This document shows, piece after piece, positions 15,904 to 35,635 of a stretch of DNA of 55,684 bases. Under the pieces are notes generated by a model. That model was not told the origin of the DNA, searched no databases, and saw nothing but the letters and a program-made list of their open reading frames with translations. Origin of the DNA: an uncultured Ruminococcus sp. (GTDB lineage Bacteria; Bacillota; Clostridia; Oscillospirales; Acutalibacteraceae). The stretch's first letter is position 1, and every line of letters begins with the position of its first letter. The position numbers and the translations under genes are program-made. The stretch covers positions 1-55,684 of the forward strand of contig CACYPH010000012.1 of NCBI GenBank assembly GCA_902776185.1, written 5' to 3'.

Positions 15904-16057
15904 TATACTAATCCTTGATAAAAAGATTGAATAAGATATTAGAGATATATTTCACAGAGCGCGGCGGACGACGCAGGCAGGCACCTGTCAAGGAGTCCAA
16001 CAAAGCTATGCGAAATATAGCTCAATAGATGTTAAAGATTTTTATTAAGGAGTAGTA
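15904..16057. other. gene-free interval downstream of spoVAD
   Basis: No start-codon-led gene is visible. ATATTTC (15947-15953) and GAAATAT (16012-16018) are complementary and enclose a GC-rich stretch; GCTAT/ATAGC also form a small hairpin inside. It could be a small RNA or a gene remnant. spoVAE, which usually follows spoVAD, is absent. Confidence 0.3.
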
Positions 16058-16441
16058 TTATATACGGATATTCACAAGATGCGCGATCGATGGGATCGTC
16101 TGCTTTTGCAGAACGGTCGTCGGGCTGAGCAGCGCACCGGTCGCGATAAACAGGATGTTGCGGTATTTTCTCATGCACATATTCCGCAGGATATGACCGC
16201 ATAATACCGATGCACAGCATCCGCATCCCGAGCCGCCGGCATGGACGTCCTGATCGTCATCGAAGATCATCACGCCGCAGTCCTTGTGCTTTGCCGCAAT
16301 ATCGATGCCCTTTTCGAGCATCAGATCATACAGCAGGCGCGAACCGACCTTTCCGAGATCTCCGGTAAAAATCGCGTCATAATCGTAGACGTCCGTATTC
16401 GTCGAGCAAAGGTGGCGATAGATGGTGTCCGCCGCGGCAGG
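16058..16441 (-). pseudogene. spoVAD: spoVAD, C-terminal segment (interrupted gene, restorable)
   Basis: Encodes the last part of SpoVAD from the APAAADTI motif to the stop. Recognisable blocks are DYDAIFTGDLGKVGS, KDCGVMIFDDDQDVHAGGSG, CGCCASVLCG, FIATGALLSP and IPSIAHLVNI. SpoVAD has a thiolase/ketosynthase-like fold, binds dipicolinic acid and helps load it into the forespore. This half lacks its own start. The frame continues upstream into element DNA without a ribosome binding site. The N-terminal half lies 8 kb away at 24460-25152 in the same orientation. Joining the two at the shared CACCTGC core gives an uninterrupted frame of 231 + 125 = 356 codons plus stop, close to the normal family size. 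I treat it as interrupted, not degenerate. Confidence 0.93.
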
Positions 16442-16467
16442 TGTTGATGGTATACTGGGAACATAAC
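16437..16467. other. attachment site at the spoVAD C-terminal junction
   Basis: Core GCAGGTG (CACCTGC on the minus strand) at 16437-16443. On the element side the sequence away from the centre is TGTTGATG, then 8 nt, then GGAACATAAC (16458-16467). On the gene side it is TGCCGCGGCGG. The other junction has the same spacing of motifs, as expected for the two half-sites of a large serine recombinase target. Confidence 0.88.
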
Positions 16468-16494
16468 GGTCAGACGGGACATATCCATCAAACC

Positions 16495-16505
16495 GGTATA
16501 CTGTC
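16495..16505. repeat. GGTATACTGTC motif beside the attachment arm
   Basis: Identical to the 11-mer at 21782-21792 in the recombinase promoter, where it is also present inverted at 21803-21813. A shorter GGTATACTG lies at 16449-16457 within the attachment arm itself. Possibly a binding site shared by recombinase control and recombination. Confidence 0.55.
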
Positions 16506-16574
16506 TTTTCATCATCAAAATCAGAAAGGAGGTATTGTGTCAGCGCCCCGCCAAACCGACTGAAAGCGACAAAA

Positions 16575-16605
16575 ATCCCACCGTTCCCAAAAGGGTCGGC
16601 GGGAT
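16575..16605 (-). terminator. terminator of the nucleotide-sugar operon
   Basis: ATCCCACCG (16575-16583) pairs with CGGCGGGAT (16597-16605) with an inner CCC/GGG stem; the minus strand continues TTTTTG. Confidence 0.85.
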
Positions 16606-16613
16606 GCTTTCGT

Positions 16614-17810
16614 TTATACAGGTTCGTGGAAGGTATCCGGATGACTGCTGTCAAAAACCTCGTTCGCCCACATCAGCGTGACGAGCGGTTCGGAATCCGA
16701 GAGATTGATGATGTTGTGCGACCAGCCGGGGATCATATGGACAGCTTCGATTTTTTCGCCGCTGACCTCAAAGCTGACCTTTTCATTGGTGTGGATATTG
16801 CGCTCCTCGATCCGCGCGCGTCCCGCGACAACGATGAACAGCTCCCACTTTGAATTATGCCAGTGCTGCCCCTTGGTGATACCGGGTTTAGAGATATTCA
16901 CGCTGAACTGACCGCTGTCCAAGGTTTTCATCACCGTTGTAAACGAACCGCGGTGATCGGTATTCATTTTCAGCGGATATTTGAACGCCGCGGTCGGCAG
17001 ATAGGTCAGATACAGGCTGTACAGCTTCTTCGCAAAGCTGCCGTCGGGAATAGACGGCATCATCAGCGAATCATGCTGCGCCTTGAATTCCTGCAGCAGA
17101 TCGACGATCTCTCCGAGAGTCACGGTATAGGTCAGCGGAACGTAGCAGAATTTTCCCCCTGCCCGCTCAACGGGGCGAAGTCCGTCATATTCACAGCGCT
17201 TTTCCTTGCCCTCCAGCAGGTCGAACATCGCTTCAACAAGATCGTCTATGTACAGCAGCTCAACGGTCGCTGAGCGGTCATTCACCGTGAAAGGCAGGTC
17301 GTTCGCCACAGCGTTGCAGAAGGTTGAAACCGCGCTGTTATAGTTCGGACGGCTGTGTCCCATCAGATTCGGAAAGCGGTAGACCGCGACCTTTACCCCG
17401 TTCTCCTCGCCGTATCGAAAGAACAATTCTTCGCCTGCGAGCTTGCTTTTGCCGTAATCACTCTCACCATATCTCCCAATAAGGGTAGCTTGAACAGATG
17501 ACGACAGCATCACGGGTGCCTTATTCTCATACTTCTTCAACATATCAAGCAATTTGGAACCGAAGCCGAAATTGCCCTGCATGAATTCTGCGTTGTCCTT
17601 AGGGCGATTTACTCCCGCAAGGTTAAAAACAAAATCTGCTTTTCGGCAATAGTCCTCGAGCTGCTCATCGGTGCTGTCGATATCATACTCATAGATGCCT
17701 TTGATCCTCAGCTCGGGTCTGGTGCGGTACTTGTTGTCGCGAATATTTTTCAGATTGTCGACCAGCGCTCTGCCGACCATCCCCTTAGCGCCTGTTACCA
17801 AAACATTCAT
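16614..17810 (-). CDS. FnlB/WbjC/Cap8F-type sugar nucleotide reductase
   Basis: 398-residue two-domain protein. The N-terminal SDR domain has TGAKGMVGRALVDNL and the catalytic YGKSK near residue 130. The C-terminal cupin domain has the GQHWHNSKWELFIVV metal-site motif around residue 320. This pairing defines the reductase that makes UDP-2-acetamido-2,6-dideoxy-L-talose on the route to UDP-L-FucNAc. Start at 17810 overlaps the end of the epimerase gene, with GGAG upstream; an upstream in-frame codon at 17825 is less likely. Its partner FnlC is adjacent, but the first enzyme FnlA (4,6-dehydratase/5-epimerase) is not in the window. Confidence 0.87.
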   Translation of the reverse strand: MNVLVTGAKGMVGRALVDNLKNIRDNKYRTRPELRIKGIYEYDIDSTDEQLEDYCRKADFVFNLAGVNRPKDNAEFMQGNFGFGSKLLDMLKKYENKAPVMLSSSVQATLIGRYGESDYGKSKLAGEELFFRYGEENGVKVAVYRFPNLMGHSRPNYNSAVSTFCNAVANDLPFTVNDRSATVELLYIDDLVEAMFDLLEGKEKRCEYDGLRPVERAGGKFCYVPLTYTVTLGEIVDLLQEFKAQHDSLMMPSIPDGSFAKKLYSLYLTYLPTAAFKYPLKMNTDHRGSFTTVMKTLDSGQFSVNISKPGITKGQHWHNSKWELFIVVAGRARIEERNIHTNEKVSFEVSGEKIEAVHMIPGWSHNIINLSDSEPLVTLMWANEVFDSSHPDTFHEPV

Positions 17811-18976
17811 ACGTCTTTTCTCCAAACCATCTTGTTCACAACGCCGGTGTAAGACTGGATCAGCTTGATGACCTTATCGGAAACATTTTCGTCGGTATAA
17901 TCCGGCACAGGGATACCCAAATCGCCGTTCTGATTCATCTCGACTGCGGTATCGACCGCTTGGAGCAGGCTCTTTTCATCGATGCCGGCAAGGATGAAGC
18001 AGGCTTTATCGAGCGCCTCGGGACGTTCGGTCGAGGTGCGGATACATACCGCAGGGAAAGGCTTGCCGATGCTCGTGAAGAAAGAGCTTTCCTCGGGAAG
18101 TGTACCGCTGTCAGACACGACCGCAAAGGCGTTCATCTGCAGGCAGTTGTAGTCATGGAAGCCGAGCGGTTCATGCTGAATGACGCGCGCGTCCAATTGA
18201 AATCCGCTTGCCTCCAAACGCTTTTTTGAGCGCGGATGACAGGAGTACAGGATCGGCATATCATATTTTTCTGCCATTTTATTGATCGCCGTAAACAGGC
18301 TTTTGAAATTCTTTTCGGTATCGATATTCTCCTCGCGGTGGGCGGAAAGCAGGATGTATCTGCCCTTTTCCAGACCGAGCCGTGCATGGATATCCGACCT
18401 TTCGATCTGATCAAGGTTATTGTGCAGGACCTCTGCCATCGGCGAGCCGGTCACATAGGTGCGCTCCTTCGGCAATCCCGTATCGGCAAGATAACGCCTT
18501 GCGTGCTCAGAATACGCCAAATTGACGTCGGAGATGATGTCGACGATCCTGCGGTTGGTTTCCTCCGGCAGGCACTCGTCCTTACAACGGTTGCCCGCTT
18601 CCATATGAAAAATCGGGATATGCAGACGCTTCGCACCGATAACGGATAAGCAGGAATTGGTATCGCCCAGTACTAATACGGCGTCCGGCTGAATCTCGAC
18701 CATCAGCTGATAGGACTTCGCGATGATATTGCCCATCGTCTCGCCGAGATCCGCGCCGACAGCATCCAGATAGACGTCCGGATCGGCGAGCGACAGATCC
18801 TTGAAGAACACGCCGTTGAGATTATAGTCATAGTTCTGTCCCGTGTGGGCGAGGATCGTATCAAAATACTTTCGCGCCTTATTGATCACCGCTGAAAGGC
18901 GGATGATCTCGGGTCTTGTGCCGACAATGATCAGCAGCTTTAATTTTCCGTTATTCTGAAAGGAAACGTTACTCAT
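17807..18976 (-). CDS. UDP-N-acetylglucosamine 2-epimerase family (WecB/FnlC-like)
   Basis: 389 residues with the non-hydrolysing 2-epimerase fold: VGTRPEIIRLSAV at the N-terminus, LGDTNSCLS, HMEAGNRCKDECLPEETNRR, and SDSGTLPEE near the C-terminus, which bind the UDP-sugar. Beside a WbjC/FnlB reductase it most likely acts as FnlC, inverting C2 to give UDP-L-FucNAc. Plain WecB (UDP-ManNAc) is the alternative. Translationally coupled to the reductase by overlap and carried inside the spoVAD element. Confidence 0.9.
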   Translation of the reverse strand: MSNVSFQNNGKLKLLIIVGTRPEIIRLSAVINKARKYFDTILAHTGQNYDYNLNGVFFKDLSLADPDVYLDAVGADLGETMGNIIAKSYQLMVEIQPDAVLVLGDTNSCLSVIGAKRLHIPIFHMEAGNRCKDECLPEETNRRIVDIISDVNLAYSEHARRYLADTGLPKERTYVTGSPMAEVLHNNLDQIERSDIHARLGLEKGRYILLSAHREENIDTEKNFKSLFTAINKMAEKYDMPILYSCHPRSKKRLEASGFQLDARVIQHEPLGFHDYNCLQMNAFAVVSDSGTLPEESSFFTSIGKPFPAVCIRTSTERPEALDKACFILAGIDEKSLLQAVDTAVEMNQNGDLGIPVPDYTDENVSDKVIKLIQSYTGVVNKMVWRKDV

Positions 18977-19020
18977 AGCGACCTCCTAAGTCATTGAGCT
19001 TTTCTTTGATCCGGCGTCTC

Positions 19021-20253
19021 TTAATCTCTTCTGAACAGATCTCTGGTGTACACCTTTTCGGCGACATCATCCAGTACGGCATCATAGCGGTTGGCGATGA
19101 TCGCGTCGGACTGCTGTTTGAATGACGCAAGATCATTGACGATCCTTGAGCCGAAAAAGGTCGATCCGTCTTTCAGCGTCGGTTCATAGACGATGACGGT
19201 CGCACCCTTTGCCTTGATGCGCTTCATAACGCCTTGAATCGAGCTTTGGCGGAAATTATCTGAATCGCTCTTCATCGTCAGGCGGTACACACCGATCGTA
19301 ACGGGGTGTTCGATCTCCTGATTATAATCGCTGTTCTCGTGATAATAACCTGCTTTTTCCAGCACCCTGTCAGCGATAAACTCCTTGCGGGTGCGATTAC
19401 TCTCAACGATCGCCGACATCATATTCTGCGGCACCTCGTCATAATTGGCGAGAAGCTGCTTGGTGTCCTTCGGCAGACAGTATCCGCCGTATCCGAACGA
19501 CGGATTGTTATAATGCGAACCGATACGCGGGTCAAGACAAACGCCGTCGATAATCGCCTGTGTGTCCAGCCCCTTCATCTCGGCATAGGTATCCAGCTCA
19601 TTAAAGTAACTCACGCGCAGGGCAAGATAGGTGTTGGCGAACAGCTTGACCGCCTCCGCCTCAGAAAAGCCCATTATCAGCGTGTCAATATTTTCCTTGA
19701 GCGCACCCTCCTGCAACAGCTTTGCAAAGGTACGGGCGGCTTCGACCAAGCTGTCATCCTCCGTATCCGTACCGACGATGATGCGCGACGGATATAGATT
19801 ATCGTACAGCGCCTTAGATTCACGCAGGAATTCAGGGCTGAAAATGATTTTTTTACTGCCGGTTTTCTCCCGGATATGCGCGGTATAGCCGACAGGAACG
19901 GTGCTTTTGATCACTATGATCGCATTCGGATTTGACTGCATCACCAGCTCGATGACCGCCTCTACCGCAGAGGTATCAAAATAGTTCTTTTTGCTGTCAT
20001 AGTTGGTCGGCGCGGCGATCACAACATAATCCGCGTCCTTGTAGGCGTATTCTGCATCGAGGGTCGCTTCTAAATCGAGCTCCTTTTCGGTCAGATACTG
20101 TTCTATATATTCGTCCCGGATGGGCGATTTTTTGTTATTGATCAGCTCTACCTTTTCGGGGACGATATCCACCGCCTTGACCGTGTTATGCTGTGCGAGC
20201 AGTACAGCGATGGAGAGTCCGACGTAGCCTGTACCTGCTACTGCTATTTTCAT
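19021..20253 (-). CDS. ugd: UDP-glucose 6-dehydrogenase
   Basis: About 410 residues, short bacterial Ugd type. Rossmann motif [16 protein letters not shown], substrate-domain [14 protein letters not shown], and the catalytic cysteine in [16 protein letters not shown] around residue 255. It oxidises UDP-glucose to UDP-glucuronate with two NAD. I start at 20253, with AGGTGA upstream; three further codons to 20262 are unlikely. It follows the UDP-glucuronate 4-epimerase by 9 bp, so the pair would make UDP-galacturonate. Confidence 0.93.
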
Positions 20254-20262
20254 ATTACTCAC

Positions 20263-21342
20263 CTAAATTTGATAATACTCTTTATACCATGCCGCAAACC
20301 TGCGTAAACCTTCGCGCAGCGGCGTTGACGGCTTGTAGCCCAGATCGCGCTCCAAAGCGGATGTATCCGCATAGGTCACAGGCACATCGCCAGGCTGCAT
20401 GGGGACGAGTTTTTTATGCGCGTCAAAATCGTAATCTTCGGGCAGCACGCCTGCTCTGATCAGTTCTTCCTGAAGGATCTCCACAAAATCAAGCAGATTC
20501 TCGGGATGACTGTTGCCGATATTATACAGAGCATACGGCGCCAGAGGCAAGCCGTCATCACCGTTTTTACGCTCGGGCGGATTCATCATCACGCGCCTGA
20601 CGCCCTCGACGATATCGTCGATATAGGTAAAGTCGCGCTCACAGTTACCGTAGTTAAAGATCTCGATGGTATCGCCTTTTAACAGCTTGTCGGTGAATCC
20701 GAAGTAAGCCATATCGGGGCGGCCGGCAGGGCCGTAAACGGTGAAAAACCGCAGGCCCGTCGACGGGATATTGTAGAGCTTTGCATAAGCGTGCGCGAGC
20801 AGTTCGTTGCTTTTTTTAGTTGCGGCATAAAGGGATACCGGGTTGTCCACCTTGTCGTCGGTCGAGTACGGTACTTTTTCGTTCGTACCGTAGACCGAGG
20901 ACGAAGATGCATACACCAGATGCTCGACGCCCTTTTGTCCGTCGTCATACGAATGACGGCAGGCTTCGAGAATATTGTAGAAGCCGATCAGATTGCTTTG
21001 AATATATGCATCGGGATTCTCGATACTGTAGCGCACGCCCGCCTGTGCGGCAAGGTTGACCACGAGATCGGGTTTGTACACATCAAAGGTTTCGTCAATC
21101 AAATCCTTATCCGCCAGATCACCCTTGATGAACCGCCAGCTCACATCTGCGGCTTTTTCAGCAAGCCTGTCGATCTCTGTCAGTCGATATTCCTTGAGCG
21201 CCACATCATAGTAGTCGTTCATATTGTCAAGTCCGATGATCGTCATCGGTTCATTCGTTGAGATCAGCTTCATCACCAGGTTTGCGCCGATGAATCCGGC
21301 GGCGCCGGTGATGAGGATGTTTTTGTTCTTCAGTGGCGTCAT
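20263..21342 (-). CDS. UDP-glucuronate 4-epimerase (CapI/LpsL-like)
   Basis: 359-residue SDR epimerase. N-terminal GAAGFIGANLVMKL binds NAD, and GLDNMNDYYDVALKEYRL is the diagnostic segment of UDP-glucuronate 4-epimerases, distinguishing them from GalE. The catalytic pair is SSSVYG and the YAATKKSNE Tyr-Lys motif. It interconverts UDP-glucuronate and UDP-galacturonate. First gene of the four-gene operon inside the spoVAD element, behind a perfect consensus promoter. Confidence 0.92.
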   Translation of the reverse strand: MTPLKNKNILITGAAGFIGANLVMKLISTNEPMTIIGLDNMNDYYDVALKEYRLTEIDRLAEKAADVSWRFIKGDLADKDLIDETFDVYKPDLVVNLAAQAGVRYSIENPDAYIQSNLIGFYNILEACRHSYDDGQKGVEHLVYASSSSVYGTNEKVPYSTDDKVDNPVSLYAATKKSNELLAHAYAKLYNIPSTGLRFFTVYGPAGRPDMAYFGFTDKLLKGDTIEIFNYGNCERDFTYIDDIVEGVRRVMMNPPERKNGDDGLPLAPYALYNIGNSHPENLLDFVEILQEELIRAGVLPEDYDFDAHKKLVPMQPGDVPVTYADTSALERDLGYKPSTPLREGLRRFAAWYKEYYQI

Positions 21343-21381
21343 AAACTATCCCGTTCTTCGAAAAAATGATATATTTATATT

Positions 21382-21410
21382 ATTATATTACTTTATAGGA
21401 CAGGTGTCAA
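21382..21410 (-). promoter_or_regulatory. sigma-A promoter of the nucleotide-sugar operon
   Basis: Minus-strand TTGACA (21405-21410), 17-nt spacer, TATAAT (21382-21387): full consensus, so vegetative expression is expected. A 16-bp AT-only palindrome, AATATTTATAAATATT, lies upstream at 21453-21468. Confidence 0.9.
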
Positions 21411-21519
21411 ATAAAGTGCACAAAAAAACGAGGAGAAAACATCCATTTTGAGAATATTTATAAATATTTTTCCAAAACTAATCCCATAACATTCATCTGT
21501 CAAAGGAGAATCGAACCAT

Positions 21520-21744
21520 ATGGATCCAAGCCGGGACGCGTCGATTGATCCGTCCGATACTATTCCCCGTAATTTTGAAAATCCCTCAGCCTCTCCCCTG
21601 TCAGCTCCCGTAAAATCGGACGCCACGAGGGCATCCGATCCTTACCGCCTCGAAATCAACGACACGGTCGTTCATCTGCACTTTTGCGGTGCAAAAAGCC
21701 TGAACACCTGCCTTGCCGACGCCTTCGATACAGCCGCTCTGTGA
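21520..21744 (+). CDS. TnpW-like small transposon protein
   Basis: 74 residues. The C-terminal half, from YRLEINDTVVHLHF onward through a segment ending LADAFDTAAL, fits the TnpW pattern (a Tyr-x-Val-x-His-Phe strand followed by a helix). The N-terminal half is Ser/Pro-rich and poorly conserved. TnpW-type ORFs travel with TnpX large serine recombinases in Tn4451-like elements; their function is not established to me. AAAGGAG lies 12 nt upstream of the ATG, a long spacing. It precedes the recombinase on the same strand by 93 bp. Assignment is by pattern and context. Confidence 0.6.
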   Translation: MDPSRDASIDPSDTIPRNFENPSASPLSAPVKSDATRASDPYRLEINDTVVHLHFCGAKSLNTCLADAFDTAAL

Positions 21745-21760
21745 TGGAAAAATATACCGC

Positions 21761-21789
21761 TTGAGAAGCAAAAAGAGATATGGTATACT
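21761..21789 (+). promoter_or_regulatory. promoter of the serine recombinase
   Basis: TTGAGA (21761-21766), 17-nt spacer, TATACT (21784-21789). The -10 box lies within the inverted repeat at 21782-21813, so a bound factor would occlude it. Confidence 0.7.
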
Positions 21790-21813
21790 GTCAGCGATGA
21801 AAGACAGTATACC
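21782..21813. promoter_or_regulatory. operator-like inverted repeat before the recombinase
   Basis: GGTATACTGTC (21782-21792) and GACAGTATACC (21803-21813) are perfect 11-bp arms 10 nt apart, overlapping the -10 box. The same 11-mer occurs near the distant attachment site (16495-16505). Confidence 0.65.
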
Positions 21814-21837
21814 GCCGATAGGTTAAGGAGGTATACG

Positions 21838-23472
21838 ATGCCATACGGCACTGATACAGGGCAGCCTGAGCGGGTCGTCAGGACCTACAAGGCTGCTCTT
21901 TATATTCGCCTGTCGCGTGACGACGGCGACAAAGCGGAATCGGATTCTGTCGTCAACCAGAAAGACCTGCTGACAAGCTTCGCGGACAGTCAGCCGGATA
22001 TCGAAACCTATGATTGCTATATCGACGACGGCTGGTCGGGAGCCAATTTCAACCGTCCGGATTTTCTCAGGATGATGGCGGACGTCTATTCGGAAAAGGT
22101 CGACTGCATCATCGTCAAGGACAGCTCCCGCTTCGGCAGAAACGCTTCTGAGAGCGGCCGCTACATCGGCGAGATATTCCCGCGGCTGCGCGTGCGCTAT
22201 ATCGCCGTGAACGATGCGATCGATTCCGGCAGAAGCCGGGGCGTTGCGATCGACTTTCTCAACAACAGCATGCGCGGGATGATCAACGAATATTATGTTG
22301 CCGCAAACTCCGAGAACATCTGCGCCACGCTGAATATGGAGCGGCGGCGCGGGGATTTCATCGGTTCATTTGCCAAATACGGCTACAAAAAAGATCCCGC
22401 CGACCGCCACAAGCTGATCATCGACGAAGAGGCGGCACAAATCGTGCGTCTGATCTTTCGGATGTTTCTGAACGGATCGGGGATTCGAACGATCGTCCGT
22501 CATCTGAACGATAACGGAATCCCCAATCCATCGACCTACAAACGCCGTCTTGAACCCAATTACCGAATCAGCGGCTCGACGCTTTGGAGCGATAAGACCG
22601 TCCGGCGCACACTGCACGACGAGATGTACATCGGCAACATGGTACAGGGCAAGTTCAAAAAGGTCAGCTACAAGGACAAGGCGATCATCGCTCAGCCCGA
22701 AGCAGAATGGATCAAAGTCCGAAACACCCATGAGGCGATCATCTCAAAAGAGGACTATGAACACGCTCAGCGACTGCTGGAGCAGCGAGCAAAAGCCTCT
22801 GCCGTCAGCGGTGAGATCGGTTTATTTTCGGGATTGCTGAAATGCGCCGACTGCGGTCACGCGCTGATCAAAAAGGCCAATAAAAATGCGAACAAAACCT
22901 ATGTTTACTACCGTTGCTCGACCCACTGTAAATGCAAGACCGCCTGCTCCTCCCACACCGTCAGCTACGACAAGCTGTATCACACGGTGCTGTGCTGTAT
23001 CCAAAGGATGGTGGAAATCGCGGTCGACGCCGATGAGGTGATCAAAAAACTGCGCCGGCATCGATCTGCAGCTGCGGATGACGACAGACGGATACAGCTG
23101 CAAAAGCAGGAAAATGAACTTGAAAAGGTCACAAATCTGCTCGCCGACCTTTACCCTGACTTCAAAAGCGGCATACTGAACGTCGATCAATACCGCATCA
23201 ACAAACAAAAGTATGAGAAAATCCGCGAAAGCCTGACGCAAAGTATCGAAGAGCTGAGAGAATCTATCCACGATTCCAAGCTTCCGGATAAAACGAACGC
23301 GTTTGTCGAACACTTTAAACGTCACGGCAACATCGACCGTCTGACCCGCCCCCTGCTGACGGAATTGATCGAACAGATCGTCGTGGATGAGAACGGCGAT
23401 CTCGACGTTACCTTCCGATTTCGCGACGCCTTTGAAGAGGCTCGCAGGGCAACAGCTGGTCACAAGGCGTGA
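21838..23472 (+). CDS. large serine recombinase (TnpX/TndX type)
   Basis: 544 residues. The resolvase catalytic domain (about 18-165) has YIRLSRDDG with nucleophile Ser26, and DSSRFGRN with the conserved arginines. The recombinase DNA-binding domain follows (about 190-300). A zinc ribbon at about 335-390 begins CADCGHALIKK and has further paired cysteines. A Gln/Lys/Glu-rich coiled coil at about 425-480 is followed by a DUF4368-like tail. GGAGG sits ahead of the ATG. It is encoded inside the element that splits spoVAD and is the obvious agent of insertion and excision. Directionality usually needs a separate factor; the TnpW-like ORF upstream is one candidate. Intact, no frameshift. Confidence 0.95.
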   Translation: MPYGTDTGQPERVVRTYKAALYIRLSRDDGDKAESDSVVNQKDLLTSFADSQPDIETYDCYIDDGWSGANFNRPDFLRMMADVYSEKVDCIIVKDSSRFGRNASESGRYIGEIFPRLRVRYIAVNDAIDSGRSRGVAIDFLNNSMRGMINEYYVAANSENICATLNMERRRGDFIGSFAKYGYKKDPADRHKLIIDEEAAQIVRLIFRMFLNGSGIRTIVRHLNDNGIPNPSTYKRRLEPNYRISGSTLWSDKTVRRTLHDEMYIGNMVQGKFKKVSYKDKAIIAQPEAEWIKVRNTHEAIISKEDYEHAQRLLEQRAKASAVSGEIGLFSGLLKCADCGHALIKKANKNANKTYVYYRCSTHCKCKTACSSHTVSYDKLYHTVLCCIQRMVEIAVDADEVIKKLRRHRSAAADDDRRIQLQKQENELEKVTNLLADLYPDFKSGILNVDQYRINKQKYEKIRESLTQSIEELRESIHDSKLPDKTNAFVEHFKRHGNIDRLTRPLLTELIEQIVVDENGDLDVTFRFRDAFEEARRATAGHKA

Positions 23473-23490
23473 ATCAAGGTCAATTCATGG

Positions 23491-23519
23491 TAGACAAACC
23501 CTTCGATTTGTGGCAAAAT
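23491..23519 (+). promoter_or_regulatory. possible promoter of nfo
   Basis: TAGACA (23491-23496), 17-nt spacer, CAAAAT (23514-23519), followed by CGGAGGG before the ATG. Only a fair match to sigma-A. Confidence 0.45.
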
Positions 23520-23542
23520 AAGAACAGATCGGAGGGATTCAT

Positions 23543-24373
23543 ATGATTTACATCGGCTGTCACCTGAGCGTGACCAACGGGTATGAGGCGATGGGCAAAA
23601 AGATGCTGGATTTCGGCGGCAACACCTTTGCTTACTTTACCCGCAATCCGCGCGGCGGCAAATCCAAGGAGATCATCCCCGAGGATGCGGCGGCGCTGAA
23701 TCAACTACTCAGAGAGAACCGTTTCGGAGCGCTTGTCGCACACGGCAGCTACACCATGAACCTCTGCGCTTCCAATCCCGTCACCAAAGCGAACGGCTTA
23801 GATATGCTGCAAAAGGATATTGATCGGATGGAAGCCTTTCCCGGGAACTTCTACAACTTCCACCCCGGCGCGCATACGGGTCAGGGAGCGGACAAAGGGA
23901 TCGAACTGATCGCCGAGGCGCTCAACTCAGTTCTTTTCCCTCAAATGCAAACCACCGTTCTCCTCGAGACCATGGCGGGCAAGGGAACGGAAATGGGCAG
24001 GAGCTTTGAGGAGCTGCGCGCGATCATCGACCGTGTCGAGCTCAGCGACAAGCTCGGCGTATGCTTCGACACCTGTCATGTATGGGATGCTGGCTACGAT
24101 ATCGCGGGCGATCTCGACGGCGTGCTGCAGCGGTTCGACGATGTGATCGGTCTTGAGCGGCTCTATGCCGTCCATTTCAACGACAGCAAGAATCCCTGCG
24201 GCTCTCACAAGGATCGCCACGAAAAGCTCGGAGAGGGCTGTATCGGCATGGAAGCGATGAAGCGCATCGCCCTCCACCCCGCTCTGCAAAACAAGCCCTT
24301 CATCCTGGAGACACCGAACGACGACAGCGGTTACATCAAAGAGATCCGCACCGTCCTGAGCTGGATGAAATAA
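23543..24373 (+). CDS. nfo: endonuclease IV (AP endonuclease)
   Basis: 276-residue TIM-barrel zinc enzyme that cuts 5' of abasic sites. Family blocks are GCHLSVTNGYEAM, HGSYTMNLC, NFHPGAHTGQG, LLETMAGKGTEMG, GVCFDTCHVWDAGYD, HFNDSKNPCGSHKDRHE with the metal-binding His and Asp residues, and ETP near the end. GGAGG lies 8 nt upstream of the ATG. It is carried by the spoVAD element, after the recombinase. In B. subtilis nfo is a sporulation gene protecting spore DNA, so its presence here is notable, although housekeeping copies are common. Confidence 0.95.
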   Translation: MIYIGCHLSVTNGYEAMGKKMLDFGGNTFAYFTRNPRGGKSKEIIPEDAAALNQLLRENRFGALVAHGSYTMNLCASNPVTKANGLDMLQKDIDRMEAFPGNFYNFHPGAHTGQGADKGIELIAEALNSVLFPQMQTTVLLETMAGKGTEMGRSFEELRAIIDRVELSDKLGVCFDTCHVWDAGYDIAGDLDGVLQRFDDVIGLERLYAVHFNDSKNPCGSHKDRHEKLGEGCIGMEAMKRIALHPALQNKPFILETPNDDSGYIKEIRTVLSWMK

Positions 24374-24391
24374 CAGAATCATTACATAAGT

Positions 24392-24432
24392 ACGTCCGCT
24401 GTCAGCAAGCGCTGTTGACAGCGGACGTTTTA
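24392..24432 (+). terminator. terminator of nfo
   Basis: ACGTCCGCTGTCA (24392-24404) pairs perfectly with TGACAGCGGACGT (24416-24428), then TTTT. It abuts the element's attachment arm. Confidence 0.9.
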
Positions 24433-24437
24433 AAAAA

Positions 24438-24467
24438 GTTTTGTTCCTTACTTGACATCAGCAGGTG
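24438..24467. other. attachment site at the spoVAD N-terminal junction
   Basis: Core GCAGGTG at 24461-24467. Reading away from the centre on the element side: TGCTGATG, 8 nt, GGAACAAAAC (ending 24438). On the gene side: TGCCATGGCGG. The premature TAA that ends the N-terminal half (24448-24450) lies in the 8-nt spacer. Confidence 0.88.
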
Positions 24468-25152
24468 CCATGGCGGCGCCCATATTATTCTGGTCGGTCA
24501 CGGCAAAATCGGTAATCATTCCGGGTCTGGCGGCGCGGATATACGGCATTTGCGTATTCGGAAAAACCGTCTGCCGCTGATCTTTTTCGCCGTTTGACTG
24601 CTTGAATCCGTCTTTTGATCTATCGCTGTCGGCTTCTATGACACAGGCGCCCGATCCGGTGACGGTCCACTGGGCTGTCGGCGGACGCTGAGAGCCGTAC
24701 TCGAGCGGCATCCTGTATTGGCGCTCGGCGGTACAGTAATGGGACGAGGCGGCGCAGACCGCACGGAGCGCTGCGCCGCTTTCGACAGCGACCGCGGACA
24801 TCATCAGCCCCAGCGCCATCGTCGAACAGGCGCCGTATATCCCGATATACGGGATCCCGAAGCCGCTCATCGCAAAGCTCGAGGCAACGCACTGGTTCAA
24901 GAGATCGCCGCAGAAAGCAAGGTCGATCTCCTCGCGCATCATCTCGCCCTTTTCCAGTGCAATTTCTACAGCGGTACGCATCATTTCTGTTTCCGCCTTT
25001 TCAAAGGTATCCTGACCGAAATAGCTGTCATAGACGATTTTGTCAAAATCCTCGCGCAGCGGTCCCTGCGCCTCTTTTTTGCCGACAACCGACGCAAATG
25101 CGCTGATGCGCGGTTTCTGTTCAAATAACAATGTTCCGTTACAATTCTGCAT
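24448..25152 (-). pseudogene. spoVAD: spoVAD, N-terminal segment (interrupted gene, restorable)
   Basis: Encodes the first 231 residues of SpoVAD, then three element-derived codons and a stop. Family blocks include CGDLLNQCVASSFA, GIYGACSTMALGLMMSA, ASSHYCTAERQYRMPLEYG, WTVTGSGACVI and TDQNNMGAAMAPA. Relative to B. subtilis SpoVAD there is an insertion of about 18 residues before the RAARPG segment. ATG at 25152 has GGGGAG 8 nt upstream, but that site is also the 3' arm of a terminator hairpin. A candidate sigma-G promoter overlaps. Neither spoVAC nor spoVAE flanks it, unlike most spoVA operons, so this may be an orphan or second copy. Confidence 0.93.
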
Positions 25153-28011: not shown

Positions 28012-28731
28012 CTAGCGAATCATCGCGGTCATCACGGTCAGGTTATCGCTGCCGCTGCCCAGCCGCTCGATCACGCGCAGCATCAACAGCTCGGTCCACG
28101 CCTGCGCGTTGTTGGTTTTCAAAAAGTCGAAAAGGATCTCCTGATCCTGTACATATTCCCAAAAGCCGTCGGTGCAAAGCAGAAAGCCGTCGCCCGCTGT
28201 CAGCGGTTCGGCCGTCTCGCCGAAGTCGGGCTTGAGCTTAGACTGAGATCCGAGCGAGCGCAGAAGGCTCGACTGATCCTCGTCGGTCGCGATCTCGGCG
28301 CGGGTGATCTCACCGGCGCGGTACTTTTTGAACGCGACGGAATGATCCTCGGTCACCGCTTCGATCCGATTGTTGTGCAGATAATACAAACGCGAATCGC
28401 CGACGTGCGCCCACGTCGCCTTGGTGCCGCTGATTTTCAGCGCGACCGCAGTGCTTTTCATTTTGTTCGCCTGCGCCGCCTGCTCGCTGAGGATCGCCTG
28501 ATCCGCTTCCTCAAGCCGCTTTCTCAGCCAATCCTTATCGTTTTTGTTATCGTCCAGAGGCTCGGCGAGAACGGTATCGACGACCATCTTTGAGGCGACG
28601 TCGCCGCCGCGATGACCGCCCAGTCCGTCTGCGGCGACCAATACTGCGCCGTAGGTGGTATAAGCAAAGCCGACGCTGTCCTCGTTATACTCTCTGCCGC
28701 CCTGTGAGGTAAAGGAATAAATATCTATCAT
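28012..28731 (-). CDS. PP2C-type protein phosphatase (PrpC-like)
   Basis: 239-residue PPM-family phosphatase that removes phosphate from Ser/Thr. The metal-site motifs are intact: NEDS near the start, AADGLGGHRGG, HVGDSRLYY, CTDGFWEY and SDNLTV. No membrane segment. It lies between a second PP2C gene and the FHA gene, 11-35 bp apart, and presumably opposes the kinase encoded at 29644-30861. Confidence 0.93.
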   Translation of the reverse strand: MIDIYSFTSQGGREYNEDSVGFAYTTYGAVLVAADGLGGHRGGDVASKMVVDTVLAEPLDDNKNDKDWLRKRLEEADQAILSEQAAQANKMKSTAVALKISGTKATWAHVGDSRLYYLHNNRIEAVTEDHSVAFKKYRAGEITRAEIATDEDQSSLLRSLGSQSKLKPDFGETAEPLTAGDGFLLCTDGFWEYVQDQEILFDFLKTNNAQAWTELLMLRVIERLGSGSDNLTVMTAMIR

Positions 28732-28766
28732 AGCTGTTCTCCCTTATGATTTGTCAAGGGTATCCA

Positions 28767-29597
28767 TCAATATTCGCACTGTACGACCAGCGCGGTGTAA
28801 TTATCCTGAAAACGTCTTCCCGCCGCCTCGACCTTCTCGTGCATCAAACGGCACATCTGCTCGGGCGACGAAGCGCTGAGGCACTCTTTGAGCTGATCTT
28901 CATCGAGCACGCCGCCGACGCCGTCGGAACAAAGGAGGACAACGTCGCCGTCCATCAGCGGAATCGGACGCAGCACATAATCGATATCCTTCAGCTCGCG
29001 CATTCCGAGAAAACAGGTCAGCGCCGCTTTCTCAGGATGGGTCCTGGCGGGAGTGCAATCGACCGAGCCTTCGCGGATCTGCTGCAGGCAGACGCGGGTA
29101 AACATATTCTGCTTGCGATTGAGATGATAGATCCCGTCGCCGCGCTTGAGGATCAGATAGCTGTCGCCGACGCTGGCATAATAGAGGCACTCGTTATAGA
29201 ACACACAGATGATCCCGGTGCTGCCGCCCTGCGCGTTGAGCGTCGCGAAGATCTCGTCGTTCGCTCTGATCATGCTGTCACGCAGGCGGGTAGGGATATC
29301 CGATGTGACGTCCATGCTTTCAAAATCCGCCTTGATGCGCGCGATCGCCGCCTCGCTGGCGATTTTGCCGTCCTTCATGCCGCCCATACCGTCCGCGACG
29401 ACTGCCAGCAAGCCGCGTGTCCGCATCAGCGTCACGTCGGAGATATTGACAAACGCAAACGAATCCTCCTGATGGGAGCGTTTGCCGATTTGCTGGAGCT
29501 GAGCGCCGTGGTAGCTCAGATAATGCGGTATCGGCGTTTCGGAAAGATACGCGCGCGGGGCATTCAATAAAGCTGTATTGCTTTTCTTTTTCATCAT
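28767..29597 (-). CDS. PP2C-type protein phosphatase
   Basis: 276-residue PPM phosphatase with an N-terminal extension of about 30 residues. Motifs HQEDSFAF, VADGMGGMKDG, ASVGDSYLIL, LCSDGVGGVL and DNYTALVV give the metal-binding aspartates. Start at 29597 (ATGATG) follows AAAGGTG; the GTG at 29603 overlaps that site. Second gene of the operon, 46 bp after the kinase. Two phosphatases against one kinase in the same operon suggests distinct substrates. Confidence 0.92.
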   Translation of the reverse strand: MMKKKSNTALLNAPRAYLSETPIPHYLSYHGAQLQQIGKRSHQEDSFAFVNISDVTLMRTRGLLAVVADGMGGMKDGKIASEAAIARIKADFESMDVTSDIPTRLRDSMIRANDEIFATLNAQGGSTGIICVFYNECLYYASVGDSYLILKRGDGIYHLNRKQNMFTRVCLQQIREGSVDCTPARTHPEKAALTCFLGMRELKDIDYVLRPIPLMDGDVVLLCSDGVGGVLDEDQLKECLSASSPEQMCRLMHEKVEAAGRRFQDNYTALVVQCEY

Positions 29598-29643
29598 GTT
29601 CACCTTTCAGCCTGTTTTTGAGATGCAGGCAAATAAAAGTGTA

Positions 29644-30861
29644 TTACTTCAACAACAGGATAATCACCAGTATCACGGCGAAGACCGCCATGCTCGCGCC
29701 GAAAGAAATCAGAAACGATTTCAGCGGGGTGAGCTTCTTTTGCACCGGCGGCTGAGGTACGGATACCGGCGGTGCTGGGATGACCGGCGGTGTTGTCGGC
29801 GGTATGTACGGCTGCGACGCAGGGCTGCCGGACGAGCCGGTATTCTGCGGCGGTGCAGGGGGGCGATTCCCGTTCGGCGCGGGTCTGAAAAGCGCCGGCG
29901 GGACCTGTCCGGTTGTCAGCAGACATTCCTTGAGCTGCTGGGTCGACTGGAATCTGTCCGACGGCTGGACTGCCAAGCCCTTGAACAGTGCAAACTCGCC
30001 CTGAGGGGTGAGGTCGGAGCAATAATAGCGGGGTGTGACCAAAAGGTCATTATCCATACGGTCGATGGAATCCTGCGGGATAATGCCGGTGATCGCGCGG
30101 TAAAAGGTCGCCGACAGAGAATAAACATCCGTATAAGGACCCTGACGGCCGTGGCGGGAATACTGTTCTCTGGGCGCATAGCCGTGCTTTAAGACGACGT
30201 CCAGACTGCGGCTCATATCGCCGATGCTGTATCTAGCCGCGCCGAAATCCAGCAGCTTGATATTGCCGTTTTTCGTGATGATGATATTGTCGGGACTGAT
30301 GTCACGGTGGACGATCCCCTTGGAGTGAACGATCGACAGCGCATCCATCACGGGGACAAGAATCCGTTTCGCTTCTTCAAAGCTGATCTTGCCGCCGTGG
30401 CTCTTGAGGTAATCCTTGAGACTGGTTCCCTCGATATACTCCATGACAAAATACGCGGTACCGTTCTCCTCAAAATAGCGGTAAACACGCACGATGCTCG
30501 GATTGCCAAGGAAGGTCGCGAGGGTTTTCGCCTCTTCCAAAAAGCACTGTTTACCGTATTGGAAGCCTGCACCTCTCTCTCCCGAATGCGCCGAAACGGT
30601 ATGTGTCGCGGTACGCGCCGCCATGCTGTCGGGGAAGTATTCCTTGATCGCGACGCGCTTGCCGGCGGTGTTATCCTGTGCTACATAGGTGATGCCGAAG
30701 CCGCCCTGACCCAATACTCTGCCGAGGGTGAAGATCTTTCCGACAACCGTTCCGGCAGGGAGCGCCGAGGGAAAGCGACCGTTATTTTCCGCCGCGTTAT
30801 ACTGACAATGAGGGCAAATCGGACTGTCGCCCTTATCCTGAAAACAGTTATAACAAATCAT
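29644..30861 (-). CDS. zinc-ribbon Ser/Thr protein kinase, membrane-anchored
   Basis: 405 residues. An N-terminal zinc ribbon (CYNC...CPHC, about 3-22) is followed by a Hanks-type kinase domain (about 40-300). The domain has the glycine loop GQGGFGITYVAQD, catalytic lysine in VAIKEYFP, HRDISPDN and DFGAARYS, and the activation-segment motif HGYAPREQY. A Pro-rich linker (about 320-375) and a C-terminal transmembrane helix (about 383-404) follow. There is no extracellular sensor domain, unlike PASTA kinases. I use the ATG at 30861; a GTG 12 bp upstream is too close to AAGGAA. First gene of the kinase-PP2C-PP2C-FHA operon. Confidence 0.92.
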   Translation of the reverse strand: MICYNCFQDKGDSPICPHCQYNAAENNGRFPSALPAGTVVGKIFTLGRVLGQGGFGITYVAQDNTAGKRVAIKEYFPDSMAARTATHTVSAHSGERGAGFQYGKQCFLEEAKTLATFLGNPSIVRVYRYFEENGTAYFVMEYIEGTSLKDYLKSHGGKISFEEAKRILVPVMDALSIVHSKGIVHRDISPDNIIITKNGNIKLLDFGAARYSIGDMSRSLDVVLKHGYAPREQYSRHGRQGPYTDVYSLSATFYRAITGIIPQDSIDRMDNDLLVTPRYYCSDLTPQGEFALFKGLAVQPSDRFQSTQQLKECLLTTGQVPPALFRPAPNGNRPPAPPQNTGSSGSPASQPYIPPTTPPVIPAPPVSVPQPPVQKKLTPLKSFLISFGASMAVFAVILVIILLLK

Positions 30862-30913
30862 TGTCTGCCGCACTTCCTTACTGCATGATAAATAGATATA
30901 TATATTCTATTTT

Positions 30914-30942
30914 ATTATACTAAATCCTGCATACAATGTCAA
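30914..30942 (-). promoter_or_regulatory. promoter of the first kinase operon
   Basis: Minus-strand TTGACA (30937-30942), 17-nt spacer, TATAAT (30914-30919): full consensus. Confidence 0.9.
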
Positions 30943-31103
30943 ATAGTATCTCACCCGCTCCTCAACGGTCGCCTACATACGCTAATTATTCCAAAACTGT
31001 AATCAATTATTAAAGAATCTTTCATTTACTATAGATTCAAAACATAATATAATATATTCTGATTTAGCATATTCTTGCATCGAATGAGAAAGGAGGGTGA
31101 AAA

Positions 31104-34100
31104 ATGCTGCAGATCAAAAACATCAAAAAAGTATACAAAACCGGCAGTCTGGTACAGGAAGCGCTCAAGGGCGTGACGCTCAGCCTGCGCGACAATGAAT
31201 TTGTAGCGATCCTCGGACCGAGCGGCTCCGGAAAAACTACCCTCCTGAATATCATCGGCGGACTTGACCGCTACGACGACGGCGACCTTGTCATCAACGG
31301 CATCTCAACGAAAAAATACTCCGAGCGTGACTGGGATTCCTACCGCAATCACACCGTCGGCTTTGTATTCCAGAGCTATAACCTGATCCCCCACCAGACG
31401 ATTCTCAAGAACGTCGAGCTGGCGCTGACCATCAGCGGAATCTCGTCGAAGGAGCGTACCGCCCGCGCGACAGAAGCGCTCGAAAAGGTAGGGCTGAAGG
31501 AGCATATCCACAAACGCCCCTCCCAGCTGTCGGGCGGTCAGATGCAGCGCGTCGCGATCGCGCGCGCCCTTGTCAACGACCCCGACATCCTGCTTGCCGA
31601 CGAACCGACAGGCGCGCTGGATTCGGAGACCAGCATCCAGGTCATGGACCTGCTCAAAGAGGTCGCCAGCGACCGTCTTGTCGTGATGGTCACCCACAAT
31701 CCCGAGCTTGCCGAGACCTACGCGACGCGCATCGTCACCCTGATGGACGGCGAGATCACCTCGGACTCCGACCCCTACGAACCGAAGTCCGGCGATGCGG
31801 TTCACAAGAATATGGGCAAGGCGTCCATGTCGTTCTTTACCGCGCTCGCGTTATCCTTCAACAACCTGCGCACCAAAAAAGCGCGCACGATCCTTGTCGC
31901 CTTCGCGGGCTCGATCGGCATCATCGGCATCGCGATGATCCTTGCGCTCTCTCACGGTGCGACGCAGTATATCCACAATGTCGAGGAGGAAAGCCTGCAG
32001 AGCTACCCGATCACCATCAGCGACACCAACTTTGATTTTACGTCTATCTACACCGACAACATCTCAGATGATAAGAATAATGACGAAAACGATGATGACG
32101 GCGGCAAGCCCGTCAAAGAAATGCGCGTGCTGTCAGCGATGCTTTCAGGCGTCAAGAAAAACGACCTAAAATCCCTGCGCGCATATTTTGAAAGCGACGA
32201 CTGCGACATTTATGATTATGTACAGTCGCTGGAATACGGCTATGAGCTGGTTCCCCAAATCTTCAAAGAGTATGACGACGAATACCGTCAGGTCAATCCT
32301 GACAAAACACTGACCGCGATGGGATTTTCCAACGACGATTCGCTGATGAGCGGAATCATTTCCTCTTTCTCTACCACCACAACCTTCAACCCTCTTCCAA
32401 AAGAGGAAAAAATATACACCGAAAGCTACGACGTCAAGGCGGGAAGATGGCCGCAAAGCTATGATGAATGCGTCGTTGTTCTGACGAGAAACGGAAAAAT
32501 CCCCGACAGCGCTCTCTACAACCTCGGCTTGAAAGATCCTACCGAACTGGACGAGCTGATCAAGGCATATACTGAGAACACCAGCACCCGCGTGGAAGAA
32601 GCGCCGCTGACCTTCGATTACGATGACTTTCTGGGGATTGAGTTCAAGCTGATCTCCTCGACCCAATACTATACCTACGACAAGAAAAACAAAATCTGGG
32701 TCGACCGTTCAGATAACCAAAAGGCGATGAAGCCGCTGCTCGATAAGGCAGACAGTATGCGCGTCGTCGGCGTCGTTCAGCCGACAAAAGACAATATGTC
32801 CCCTATCCTCGTACAGGGTATCTGCTACCACGCATCCATCACCGATCATCTGATCGAACTCTCAAAGGATACCGATATCGTCAAGGCACAGCTCAAAGAT
32901 CCGAAAACCGACATCTTTACCGGCAAGCCCTTCGGCGAAAAAGATACAGCCGATCCGTTCGATTTTTCCAAGCTCTTCTCGGTCGATAAAAATGCGATCA
33001 ACAAGGCGTTTGACCCGAACTCGCTGAATATTGAGATCCCCGAGATGGATTTCGGTTCGATGGATTTTTCCGATATCGATCTGGAATCCGCCGTGTCGGA
33101 CTACGATTTTTCCGAGAGCTTTCCCAAGCTCAGCGCAGACGATATCGAAGAGCTGTTCAAATCCGTCAACTTCACCGTCACAGCAGACAACATGAAAGAG
33201 CTGTTCGAGAAGCTGATCGACGGTTACACCGCTTATGTCAAAGATAAACCCGAGGCGAATCTCGAGAATCTTCCGGACGCCTTTGCTCAGTATATCACCT
33301 CTGAGGAAGCGCGGACGATCTTGCTCGACGATCTGAAAACCATCATCGAATCCAAAGCCGAATACCTGATTACAACAGAGGATATCACCGCCCTGATACA
33401 GTCTGTCATGGAGGGGTATCCCGAATTCCTGGTTGAAAACGACCTGAGCGAAACCGTCACCTACGCCCACCTCGCCGAATACCTGCAAAGCGAAACAGCG
33501 CAGGCGCTGATCGAGAGCGGCGTGGAAGCGCTGCGCGAAAAGCTGAGCAAGCTGATGTTCACGACCGAAGAGGTCACCACGATCACAAAAGACCTGATCA
33601 ACGGGTATGAGCCTTTCGCAAAGAAAAACCAGCTGCCGACCACCTCGTCGCTGCTGACGGGATTTATCGAGTATCTCTCGACCGACAGCGCAAAGGAGCT
33701 TATCACACAGACCATATCCGGCGCAGTCGATACCACGGCGATGGAAAAGACCATCGCGCGCTATACCGATCTGATGTCGGAACAGATCAACGGCGTGATC
33801 TACCAATTGCTGGACGCCGTCAAAACACAGATCACAACCGCGCTGCAAAGCGCGATGAACTCGCTGACGAGCGGCATCTCAAGCGATATGCTCAGCGCGT
33901 TCAGCTTCGACGCTTCACAGCTGTCGGATATGATCAAATTCAATATGACCGCACAGGAGATGAAGGATCTGATGACGTCGCTGCTCTCCTCTACCGAAAC
34001 CACTTTTGAGAGCAATCTGCGCAAGATCGGCTACGCGGACGTCGAAAAGCCGTCCACCATCACCATCTATCCCGCTGACTACGACAGCAAGGCGCATATC

Positions 34101-34625
34101 AAGGAACTGATCGACGATTACAACGCCCGCATGATCGAGAAAGGCGACGATGATAAGGTGGTCGAGTATACCGACCTTGTCGACGCCTTGATGGGAACCG
34201 TCACCACTATCATCGACGTCATCAGCTACATCCTGATCGCGTTTGTCGCCATCTCGCTGGTGGTATCGTCCATCATGATCGGCGTCATCACCTATATCAG
34301 CGTTCTCGAACGCCGCAAGGAGATCGGAATCCTGCGCGCGATCGGCGCGTCAAAGCACAATATTTCGTCGGTATTCAACGCCGAGACCTTTATCATCGGC
34401 ACGCTGGCGGGACTTTTCGGCATCGGCATCACCGAGCTGCTGATCATTCCGACCAACCTGATCATCCACTCATTGTCCGGTCAAAACGATATCAACGCGA
34501 TCCTGCCGCCGCTGGGCGCAGTGATCCTGATCCTGCTGAGCATCGTGCTGACGCTCATCGGCGGCATCATCCCCTCGCGCAAGGCGGCAAAATCCGATCC
34601 CGTCACCGCGCTCAGGTCTGATTAA
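31104..34625 (+). CDS. fused ABC transporter (ATPase plus FtsX-type permease) with large extracytoplasmic repeats
   Basis: 1173 residues. N-terminal ATPase (about 1-225) has Walker A GPSGSGKTT, signature LSGGQMQRVAIA and Walker B ILLADEPTGALD. A first membrane helix lies near residue 270. A very long extracytoplasmic region (about 290-1030) follows, then three helices in an FtsX/MacB-type domain with VLERRKEIGILRAIGASK. Within the external region, residues about 690-875 hold three tandem helical repeats of some 62-66 residues, each starting with a TxE/D-type helix and containing a GY motif. MacB-like exporters act mechanically on lipoproteins or peptides; the substrate is unknown. AAAGGAGG precedes the ATG. 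A fair promoter with TATAAT lies near 31050. Confidence 0.92.
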   Translation: MLQIKNIKKVYKTGSLVQEALKGVTLSLRDNEFVAILGPSGSGKTTLLNIIGGLDRYDDGDLVINGISTKKYSERDWDSYRNHTVGFVFQSYNLIPHQTILKNVELALTISGISSKERTARATEALEKVGLKEHIHKRPSQLSGGQMQRVAIARALVNDPDILLADEPTGALDSETSIQVMDLLKEVASDRLVVMVTHNPELAETYATRIVTLMDGEITSDSDPYEPKSGDAVHKNMGKASMSFFTALALSFNNLRTKKARTILVAFAGSIGIIGIAMILALSHGATQYIHNVEEESLQSYPITISDTNFDFTSIYTDNISDDKNNDENDDDGGKPVKEMRVLSAMLSGVKKNDLKSLRAYFESDDCDIYDYVQSLEYGYELVPQIFKEYDDEYRQVNPDKTLTAMGFSNDDSLMSGIISSFSTTTTFNPLPKEEKIYTESYDVKAGRWPQSYDECVVVLTRNGKIPDSALYNLGLKDPTELDELIKAYTENTSTRVEEAPLTFDYDDFLGIEFKLISSTQYYTYDKKNKIWVDRSDNQKAMKPLLDKADSMRVVGVVQPTKDNMSPILVQGICYHASITDHLIELSKDTDIVKAQLKDPKTDIFTGKPFGEKDTADPFDFSKLFSVDKNAINKAFDPNSLNIEIPEMDFGSMDFSDIDLESAVSDYDFSESFPKLSADDIEELFKSVNFTVTADNMKELFEKLIDGYTAYVKDKPEANLENLPDAFAQYITSEEARTILLDDLKTIIESKAEYLITTEDITALIQSVMEGYPEFLVENDLSETVTYAHLAEYLQSETAQALIESGVEALREKLSKLMFTTEEVTTITKDLINGYEPFAKKNQLPTTSSLLTGFIEYLSTDSAKELITQTISGAVDTTAMEKTIARYTDLMSEQINGVIYQLLDAVKTQITTALQSAMNSLTSGISSDMLSAFSFDASQLSDMIKFNMTAQEMKDLMTSLLSSTETTFESNLRKIGYADVEKPSTITIYPADYDSKAHIKELIDDYNARMIEKGDDDKVVEYTDLVDALMGTVTTIIDVISYILIAFVAISLVVSSIMIGVITYISVLERRKEIGILRAIGASKHNISSVFNAETFIIGTLAGLFGIGITELLIIPTNLIIHSLSGQNDINAILPPLGAVILILLSIVLTLIGGIIPSRKAAKSDPVTALRSD

Positions 34626-34667
34626 TCCATCAATAACGATTTATTCTTATACATCCGGAGGAAAACT

Positions 34668-35582: not shown

Positions 35583-35588
35583 CGAAAG

Positions 35589-35623: not shown

Positions 35624-35635
35624 ATACATAAAGAC

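Follow-up and report, generated by a model that had tools for sequence, protein, structure and literature searches.

Interruption of the sporulation gene spoVAD by serine-recombinase elements at a recurrent attachment site in gut Clostridia

A number of sporulation genes are known to be split by elements that carry a recombinase. The published targets, as given in the excerpts of the sources cited here, are sigK, spsM, spoVFB, spoVR, gerE, and yabG, which act in the mother cell or depend on SigK (PMC4191935, PMC5595907, PMC10747680), and as long as the change is confined to the mother cell, the spore genome retains the element (PMC4191935). In a stretch of 55,684 nucleotides from an uncultured Ruminococcus sp. 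(assembly GCA_902776185.1, contig CACYPH010000012.1), referred to below, at its full length, as the window, the split gene is spoVAD, which is named among the sigma-G-dependent genes of C. difficile and has a forespore role in B. subtilis (PMC3738446, also in excerpt). The two parts of the gene are separated by an 8-kb segment with a large serine recombinase, which is almost certainly a site-specific mobile insertion. The locus as a whole is explained, with a probability of roughly 0.85, as a genomic island whose serine integrase uses a site within spoVAD as its bacterial attachment site (attB), and which is cleanly excisable. No published case of spoVAD interrupted by an intervening element was found in the open-licence PMC papers examined, which agrees with an earlier, sequence-only reading of this DNA, whose author, a model, knew of none.

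In Bacillus cereus ATCC10987, the sporulation gene gerE is split by gin, a non-phage element that resembles the spoVAD element in its serine recombinase and partner (GirC/GirX), the counterpart of the latter in the spoVAD element being a candidate, its short core repeat, and its imperfectly palindromic attachment sites (PMC5595907). It differs in that gerE acts in the mother cell, in its size and content (28.6 kb, with three recombinases), and in that its excision has been shown experimentally; in the excerpted account, moreover, gin is found in some strains of B. cereus and B. toyonensis, whereas the spoVAD site is used across many genera. A large serine recombinase (SprA/YokA) also splits a sporulation gene in frame in the case of SPbeta in spsM of B. 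subtilis, although SPbeta is an active prophage, which is excised in the mother cell and retained in the spore genome (PMC4191935). Recombinase-mediated splitting is likewise common to skin in sigK, vfbin in spoVFB, vrin in spoVR, and yin in yabG, but these elements are prophage-like, their targets are mother-cell genes (sigK, spoVFB, and spoVR) or SigK-dependent (yabG), and none lies in spoVAD in the available excerpts (PMC10747680, PMC4191935). Mobile DNA and spoVAD are also found together in the genomic islands with spoVA genes of the gut Firmicutes, where, according to the excerpted text, spoVAD is cargo, and not the integration site, as it is here (PMC6907783).

In the window, codons 1–231 of spoVAD run from 25152 to 24460 on the minus strand (the open reading frame, ORF, continues to 24448), and the last 125 codons follow in the same direction at 16435–16061, with the stop codon at 16060–16058. 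The N half ends in ...NMGAAMAPA and the C half begins with AADTIYR.... Both match the SpoVAD profiles of Pfam (PF07451; expectation values, E, of 3.1e-79 for the N half and 4.9e-52 for the C half) and NCBIfam (spore_V_AD; 2.7e-70 and 1.9e-47), and the N half matches the solved SpoVAD structure PDB 3lm6 firmly over residues 7–173, and weakly over the last 27, its terminal MGAAMAPA being aligned with MGSAMAPA. The motif CACCTGC is present at each breakpoint; the CC pairs lie at 24465–24464 and 16441–16440, a core-to-core distance of 8,024 bp. Coordinates and profile matches agree here with the sequence-only reading, which had described a gene in pieces of 231 and 125 residues with this motif at both breakpoints. 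Intact relatives (L021, for example) read MGAAMAPAAADTIYR across the site without a gap. The host genome (1.88 Mb in 74 contigs, 86% complete) contains Spo0A, SpoIVA, and two SpoVAC/SpoVAEb genes, and no further SpoVAD match was found in this 86%-complete assembly.

By sequence comparison, the left attachment site (attL, 24442–24487, minus strand) is made up of the host half ...GCCATGGCA, CC, and the element arm TGCTGATGTCAAGTAAGGAACA, and the right site (attR, 16418–16463, minus strand) of the element arm TGTTCCCAGTATACCATCAACA, CC, and the host half TGCCGCGGCGGAC.... The two arms, TGTTCCCAGTATACCATCAACA-CC on the C side and CC-TGCTGATGTCAAGTAAGGAACA on the N side, represent a 22+2+22 site centered on CC. 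This site is an imperfect palindrome, in which 14 of the 22 positions are symmetric as an inverted pair, a value reached by 9 of 20,000 random pairs. A symmetric joined site (attP) around a central dinucleotide is described for phage serine recombinases (PMC5595907, in excerpt). A crossover at CC is consistent with the element of G012, in which the bases flanking CC on either side differ between attL and attR, with the qualification that the right-hand base is T instead of C in its sister, G017, so that a later change is possible in this comparison. The attR-arm motif CAGTATACC recurs at the recombinase promoter, with four copies in the window, all within the element, against 0.18 expected. 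An extra copy lies at 16495–16503 (minus strand), 46 bp from the attR copy, and an inverted GGTATACTGTC/GACAGTATACC pair of the same motif lies at 21782–21813, over the likely promoter of the recombinase, where these copies may serve autoregulation. Directly downstream of the C part, at 15960–16000, GGCACCTGTCAAGGAG looks by eye like a shortened inverted attachment site.

The same junction recurs well beyond the window. Of 161 genomes of the genus, 150 have a SpoVAD match to PF07451, and a junction at the identical codon was verified in 41 of the 161, the window included. In 36 of them the N part gives way at this codon to an element arm, the arm being of type A in 19 genomes (window included) and of type B (ATGGTT..CTTGACAACAGCA-CC-TGC.ATGGGTATAATAGAACCAT) in 17, and in the other five (G141, G125, G004, G027, and G144) only a C part with an arm was found. 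A C part with an arm also accompanies an intact spoVAD in G140, which is not counted among the 41. The half-sites of type A resemble those of type B with left and right exchanged about the common CC, as though the direction of insertion had been reversed in one of the two groups. In some elements, long open frames past the N half run into ORFs of the element.

At the level of the family, SpoVAD was found in 346 of 398 genomes, of which 48 were re-examined and 30 loci read: 22 with arms, two ending at the core, and six intact at the site or truncated. The 22 junctions come from 17 other genera, by genome labels, and most of them have a third arm type (GATGTTAAAATA..ACCAT). A scan of the order for SpoVAD matches recovered the protein in 351 of 394 genomes, with a two-match signature in other families too. 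Approached from the recombinase, 18 of 80 named loci hold a spoVAD part at the site, eight in the genus and ten in others (L134–L138, L140, L141, L146, L147, and L195), and 62 hold none in the fetched flanks. Both halves lie on one contig, in the same direction, in the window (8 kb), G012 (74 kb), G164 (29 kb), G320 (11.8 kb), G493 (13.6 kb), and L141 (6.6 kb), and both arms were found in 16 of the 20 genomes tried. The outer six arm bases are complementary in seven of the nine type B genomes with both arms, where they covary, by eye, between genomes (ATGGTC/GACCAT in G119 and G005; ATGGTT/AACCAT in G092, G130, G153, and G087; TATGTC/GACATA in G166); this complementarity is absent in G099 and G132, and the paired type B arms compared sit on different contigs.

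Three sister species with an intact spoVAD have an exact empty site (the pairs G017/G012, G139/G174, and G001/G099). In each pair, the sequences on either side of the element map to neighboring stretches of the intact locus, which share 5, 7, and 8 nt, respectively, at the core. The loss of the element would therefore leave an exact spoVAD, as the sequence-only reading had predicted, although the restored frame is seen in these sister pairs rather than in the species of the window itself. A tree built from 69 SpoVAD proteins shows split genes interspersed with intact ones, and at least nine changes of the intact label are forced, with the small clade of the window (window, G145, G107, G023, and G081) being split throughout. 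As the tree holds 33 of roughly 95–100 intact genomes, chosen in part for their closeness to the window, the split share of 18/24 in the clade of the window is no estimate of prevalence.

The reading frame is open in every N half (36) and every C half (27), 63 in total, of a SpoVAD set that was assembled without G022 (N part not obtained), G024 and G172 (arm not seen), and without one half each of G098 (the broken C half), G140 (the C half), and G165 (the second N half). The ratios of nonsynonymous to synonymous substitution (dN/dS) were calculated between pairs that shared enough sites and were moderately diverged, which overlap and are thus not independent. The medians for the N part are 0.244 in split pairs (88), 0.232 in intact pairs (40), and 0.261 in mixed pairs (108), and those for the C part are 0.220 (72), 0.264 (52), and 0.265 (100), respectively, by which split and intact genes appear to be under similar selection. 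An accumulation of mutations in both halves was among the conditions that the sequence-only reading had named against its interpretation; the frames of the 63 halves in the set are unbroken, and the one exception known is the C half of G098. In this genome, the C part (L304) begins exactly at the core, at the start of a contig, and the arms are of type A, yet its SpoVAD groups among type B hosts.

The recombinase of the window (21838–23472, plus strand; 544 aa, with Resolvase, Recombinase, and Zn ribbon domains by profile matches) matches YokA (PDB 9dxh) with an E of 3.7e-19, and the closest PDB entry to its N domain is TnpX (2mhc; E 6.1e-24). TnpX is linked with the Tn4451-type transposons, and a likeness to integrative mobilizable elements is the MobA-type relaxase (PF03432) in the element of G320, where SpoVAC lies upstream of spoVAD; the window element, by contrast, has no relaxase in a profile scan, and has a fixed target in spoVAD. 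The type A recombinases (ten elements, window included) are 61–71% identical to that of the window. Those of type B, eight from seven genomes, are 53–68% identical to the first of them and 42–47% identical to that of the window, with a partial type B copy in G140. Recombinase type agrees with arm type in 18 genomes. Recombinase, arms, and recurrent junction all bear out the serine-recombinase intervening element proposed in the sequence-only reading. Two of the type B recombinases are found in one spoVAD element of G119 (L096), perhaps through nested insertions.

A small ORF of 57–141 aa (starts uncertain) lies directly upstream of 22 of the 24 recombinases checked, the exceptions being the first copy of L096, and L147; in the window it encodes 74 aa (21520–21744, plus strand). 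A C-terminal motif, PYxFxVGDTxVxxxFxG, is common to types A and B, and DUF6870 (PF21757), for which no mention was found in the open-licence PMC literature, is matched by all four of the copies examined that are of type B or related to it (E 2.2e-19 to 1.2e-15). Because of its position and size, the small ORF is a candidate recombination directionality factor (RDF).

The cargo of the window element consists of four nucleotide-sugar genes and nfo, assigned by profile matches. The former, a surface-polysaccharide set, are all on the minus strand: a UDP-sugar reductase (16614–17825; WbcJ-like by NCBIfam, below the cut-off), the UDP-GlcNAc 2-epimerase wecB (17807–18976), a UDP-glucose 6-dehydrogenase (19021–20262), and a nucleotide-sugar epimerase (20263–21342). 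In the sister G107, the same pair of wecB and reductase lies beside attR (2,364 bp at 82.6%), and in G023 the reductase next to attR is common with the window element. Glycosyltransferases and an ABC exporter form part of the polysaccharide cluster in the 29-kb element of G164, and the 74-kb element of G012 has a larger such cluster. Useful sequence was available for 16 genomes of type A, of which 12 have polysaccharide-type genes, and such genes were found in 4 of the 13 genomes of type B, the queries having come from G164, G012, and the window, which therefore match by construction, and G141 and G125 having been left out as too short.

The endonuclease IV gene nfo (23543–24373, plus strand) is separated from attL by a terminator-like hairpin (24392–24428). 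Several relatives (L133, L296, L126, L127, L129, and L132) have nfo immediately after spoVAD, and G072 (L041) has it upstream of spoVAD. In the window, it stands inside the element, beside attL, instead of in its usual place downstream of spoVAD, and something other than nfo follows the C part in the sisters G023, G081, and G107. From this comparison of neighborhoods, nfo is apparently a host gene that was captured by the element.

No phage structural or packaging gene was found in the window element (Pfam, NCBIfam), and no phage structural gene was found for the 50 ORFs of the G012 element among the best 25 of 56 Pfam and 25 of 28 PHROG families. A phage origin was considered and rejected, the relatives of the recombinase in viral contigs being at most 41% identical (type A, 52 loci), with none confirmed for type B; a spoVAD part was present in none of the 52 loci. 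Judged by gene content, the elements examined are not phage-like.

Excision products were sought in the form of the joined attP. In the viral contigs, the exact type A pattern occurs in one contig and the type B pattern in none. The single match (L123:661–689) was rejected as a circle because it is limited to the inner bases of the arm and the phage-like contig around it is unrelated, with ORFs that resemble polymerase and reductase genes, and no recombinase seen by eye. Contigs that end at the core in G106, G098, G024, and G463 fit an assembly branch between split sites and empty or differently occupied ones, but were not counted as evidence of excision, given that mixed strains explain them equally. 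A contig of G367 also ends at the core, but another contig of this genome spans the site, and G014 appears to contain two strains, because its two contigs are 96.8% identical over their common part.

A number of results weigh against a cleanly excisable island. The exact joined attP, in either the type A or the type B pattern, is present in 0 of the 161 genomes of the genus. In G081, which has type A arms, the only recombinase within 20 kb is 30% identical, and no recombinase was met in the fetched parts of several other elements. Among three type A copies of the small ORF, only that of the window reaches DUF6870, weakly (E 0.011), and a fold search with a model of the small ORF returned no match. 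The C half of G098 has a stop after about 31 codons, and the low dN/dS values would also fit recent insertions, because the pairs overlap and dS is high for most. As the host genome is 86% complete, a second spoVAD may lie in its missing part.

In the proposed mechanism, attB would be the site within spoVAD at the codons MGAAMA-P-AAADT, with the crossover at CC, where many elements would land across the genus and family of these gut Clostridia, each integration splitting the gene. A working recombinase, together with the small upstream protein as the candidate RDF, would cut the element out to leave an exact, in-frame spoVAD, and sporulating lineages would regain the gene in this way. That the element is able to excise precisely is highly probable. 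Should the forespore require SpoVAD here as it does elsewhere, carriers would either excise the element to sporulate, or would not sporulate. A programmed excision, of the type known from skin, in which sporulation turns on the recombinase or the RDF and rebuilds spoVAD in the developing cell, can be proposed tentatively, with somewhat less than even odds. The architecture of serine recombinase, putative small partner, and sporulation gene is like that of gin, skin, and SPbeta, the spoVAD halves are under ordinary selection, and in L140 about 20 bp separate the interrupted N part from the start of the small ORF, so that the spoVAD promoter could drive this ORF and thereby start excision. Such a program fits poorly with the recombinase promoter of the window, which looks vegetative (TTGAGA-17-TATACT), with the regions preceding the small ORFs, in which no conserved promoter for sporulation was recognized (both by eye), and with the position of the recombinase and small-ORF module of the window on the strand opposite to spoVAD. 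The published systems, in the excerpts available, also confine excision to the mother cell (PMC4191935), which would be no solution for spoVAD, because the gene is named among those dependent on sigma G. With SpoVAD a forespore gene elsewhere, excision in the forespore would be inherited, as the sequence-only reading had pointed out, and the element would be lost from the spore unless it were reintegrated. An excision independent of sporulation, with only the excised cells sporulating, is a similarly tentative proposal, and excision may also be random or tied to transfer of the element. A heritable switch between capsule and spore seems rather unlikely: the cell would either have the island, with its polysaccharide set and no SpoVAD, or would lose the island, load dipicolinate, and sporulate. 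Excision would then take place in the forespore or before division, and the spores and their descendants would be without the island until its reintegration or reacquisition. Such a switch, if real, would be the first rearrangement of a sporulation gene to be transmitted through the spore, and would account for how often the island is gained and lost between sister species.

The conserved gene might also be merely a landing site, in which case the carriers would be asporulating dead ends, removed or cured over time. The interleaving of intact and split states at the tips of the tree and the broken C half of G098 speak for this account, but it is improbable, given that about a quarter of the genus representatives have the verified junction, and that sporulation genes are retained. 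The window and its four nearest rows in the tree are all split, moreover, and the attR-side cargo shared with G107 and G023 suggests a long residence, with the halves still open. An artefact of assembly or binning could be suspected from the fact that almost all of the named records come from metagenome assemblies, and that the halves of most carriers are on different contigs; it is extremely improbable in view of the five loci besides the window with both halves on one contig, the conserved and covarying arms, and the agreement between recombinase and arm type.

The island at spoVAD would break the mother-cell rule of the published rearrangements, or would force reintegration, or loss followed by reacquisition. 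Used repeatedly as an attachment site in a bacterial family, spoVAD represents a marker for mobile islands in the uncultured gut Clostridia. Fragments of spoVAD in assemblies may be due to these islands, which also advise caution before a species with a split spoVAD is called asporogenous. The recombinases and their attachment sites are, in addition, candidate tools for DNA integration.

Elsewhere in the window, a cluster of apparent protein phosphatases, kinases, and FHA and PASTA proteins extends over 28012–44390, and a large protein with apparent type I dockerin repeats is encoded at 50489–52096, both recognized by eye. Near the end of the contig, at 52507–54171, methylase-like and lysin-like ORFs, also noted by eye, perhaps represent a separate prophage remnant.

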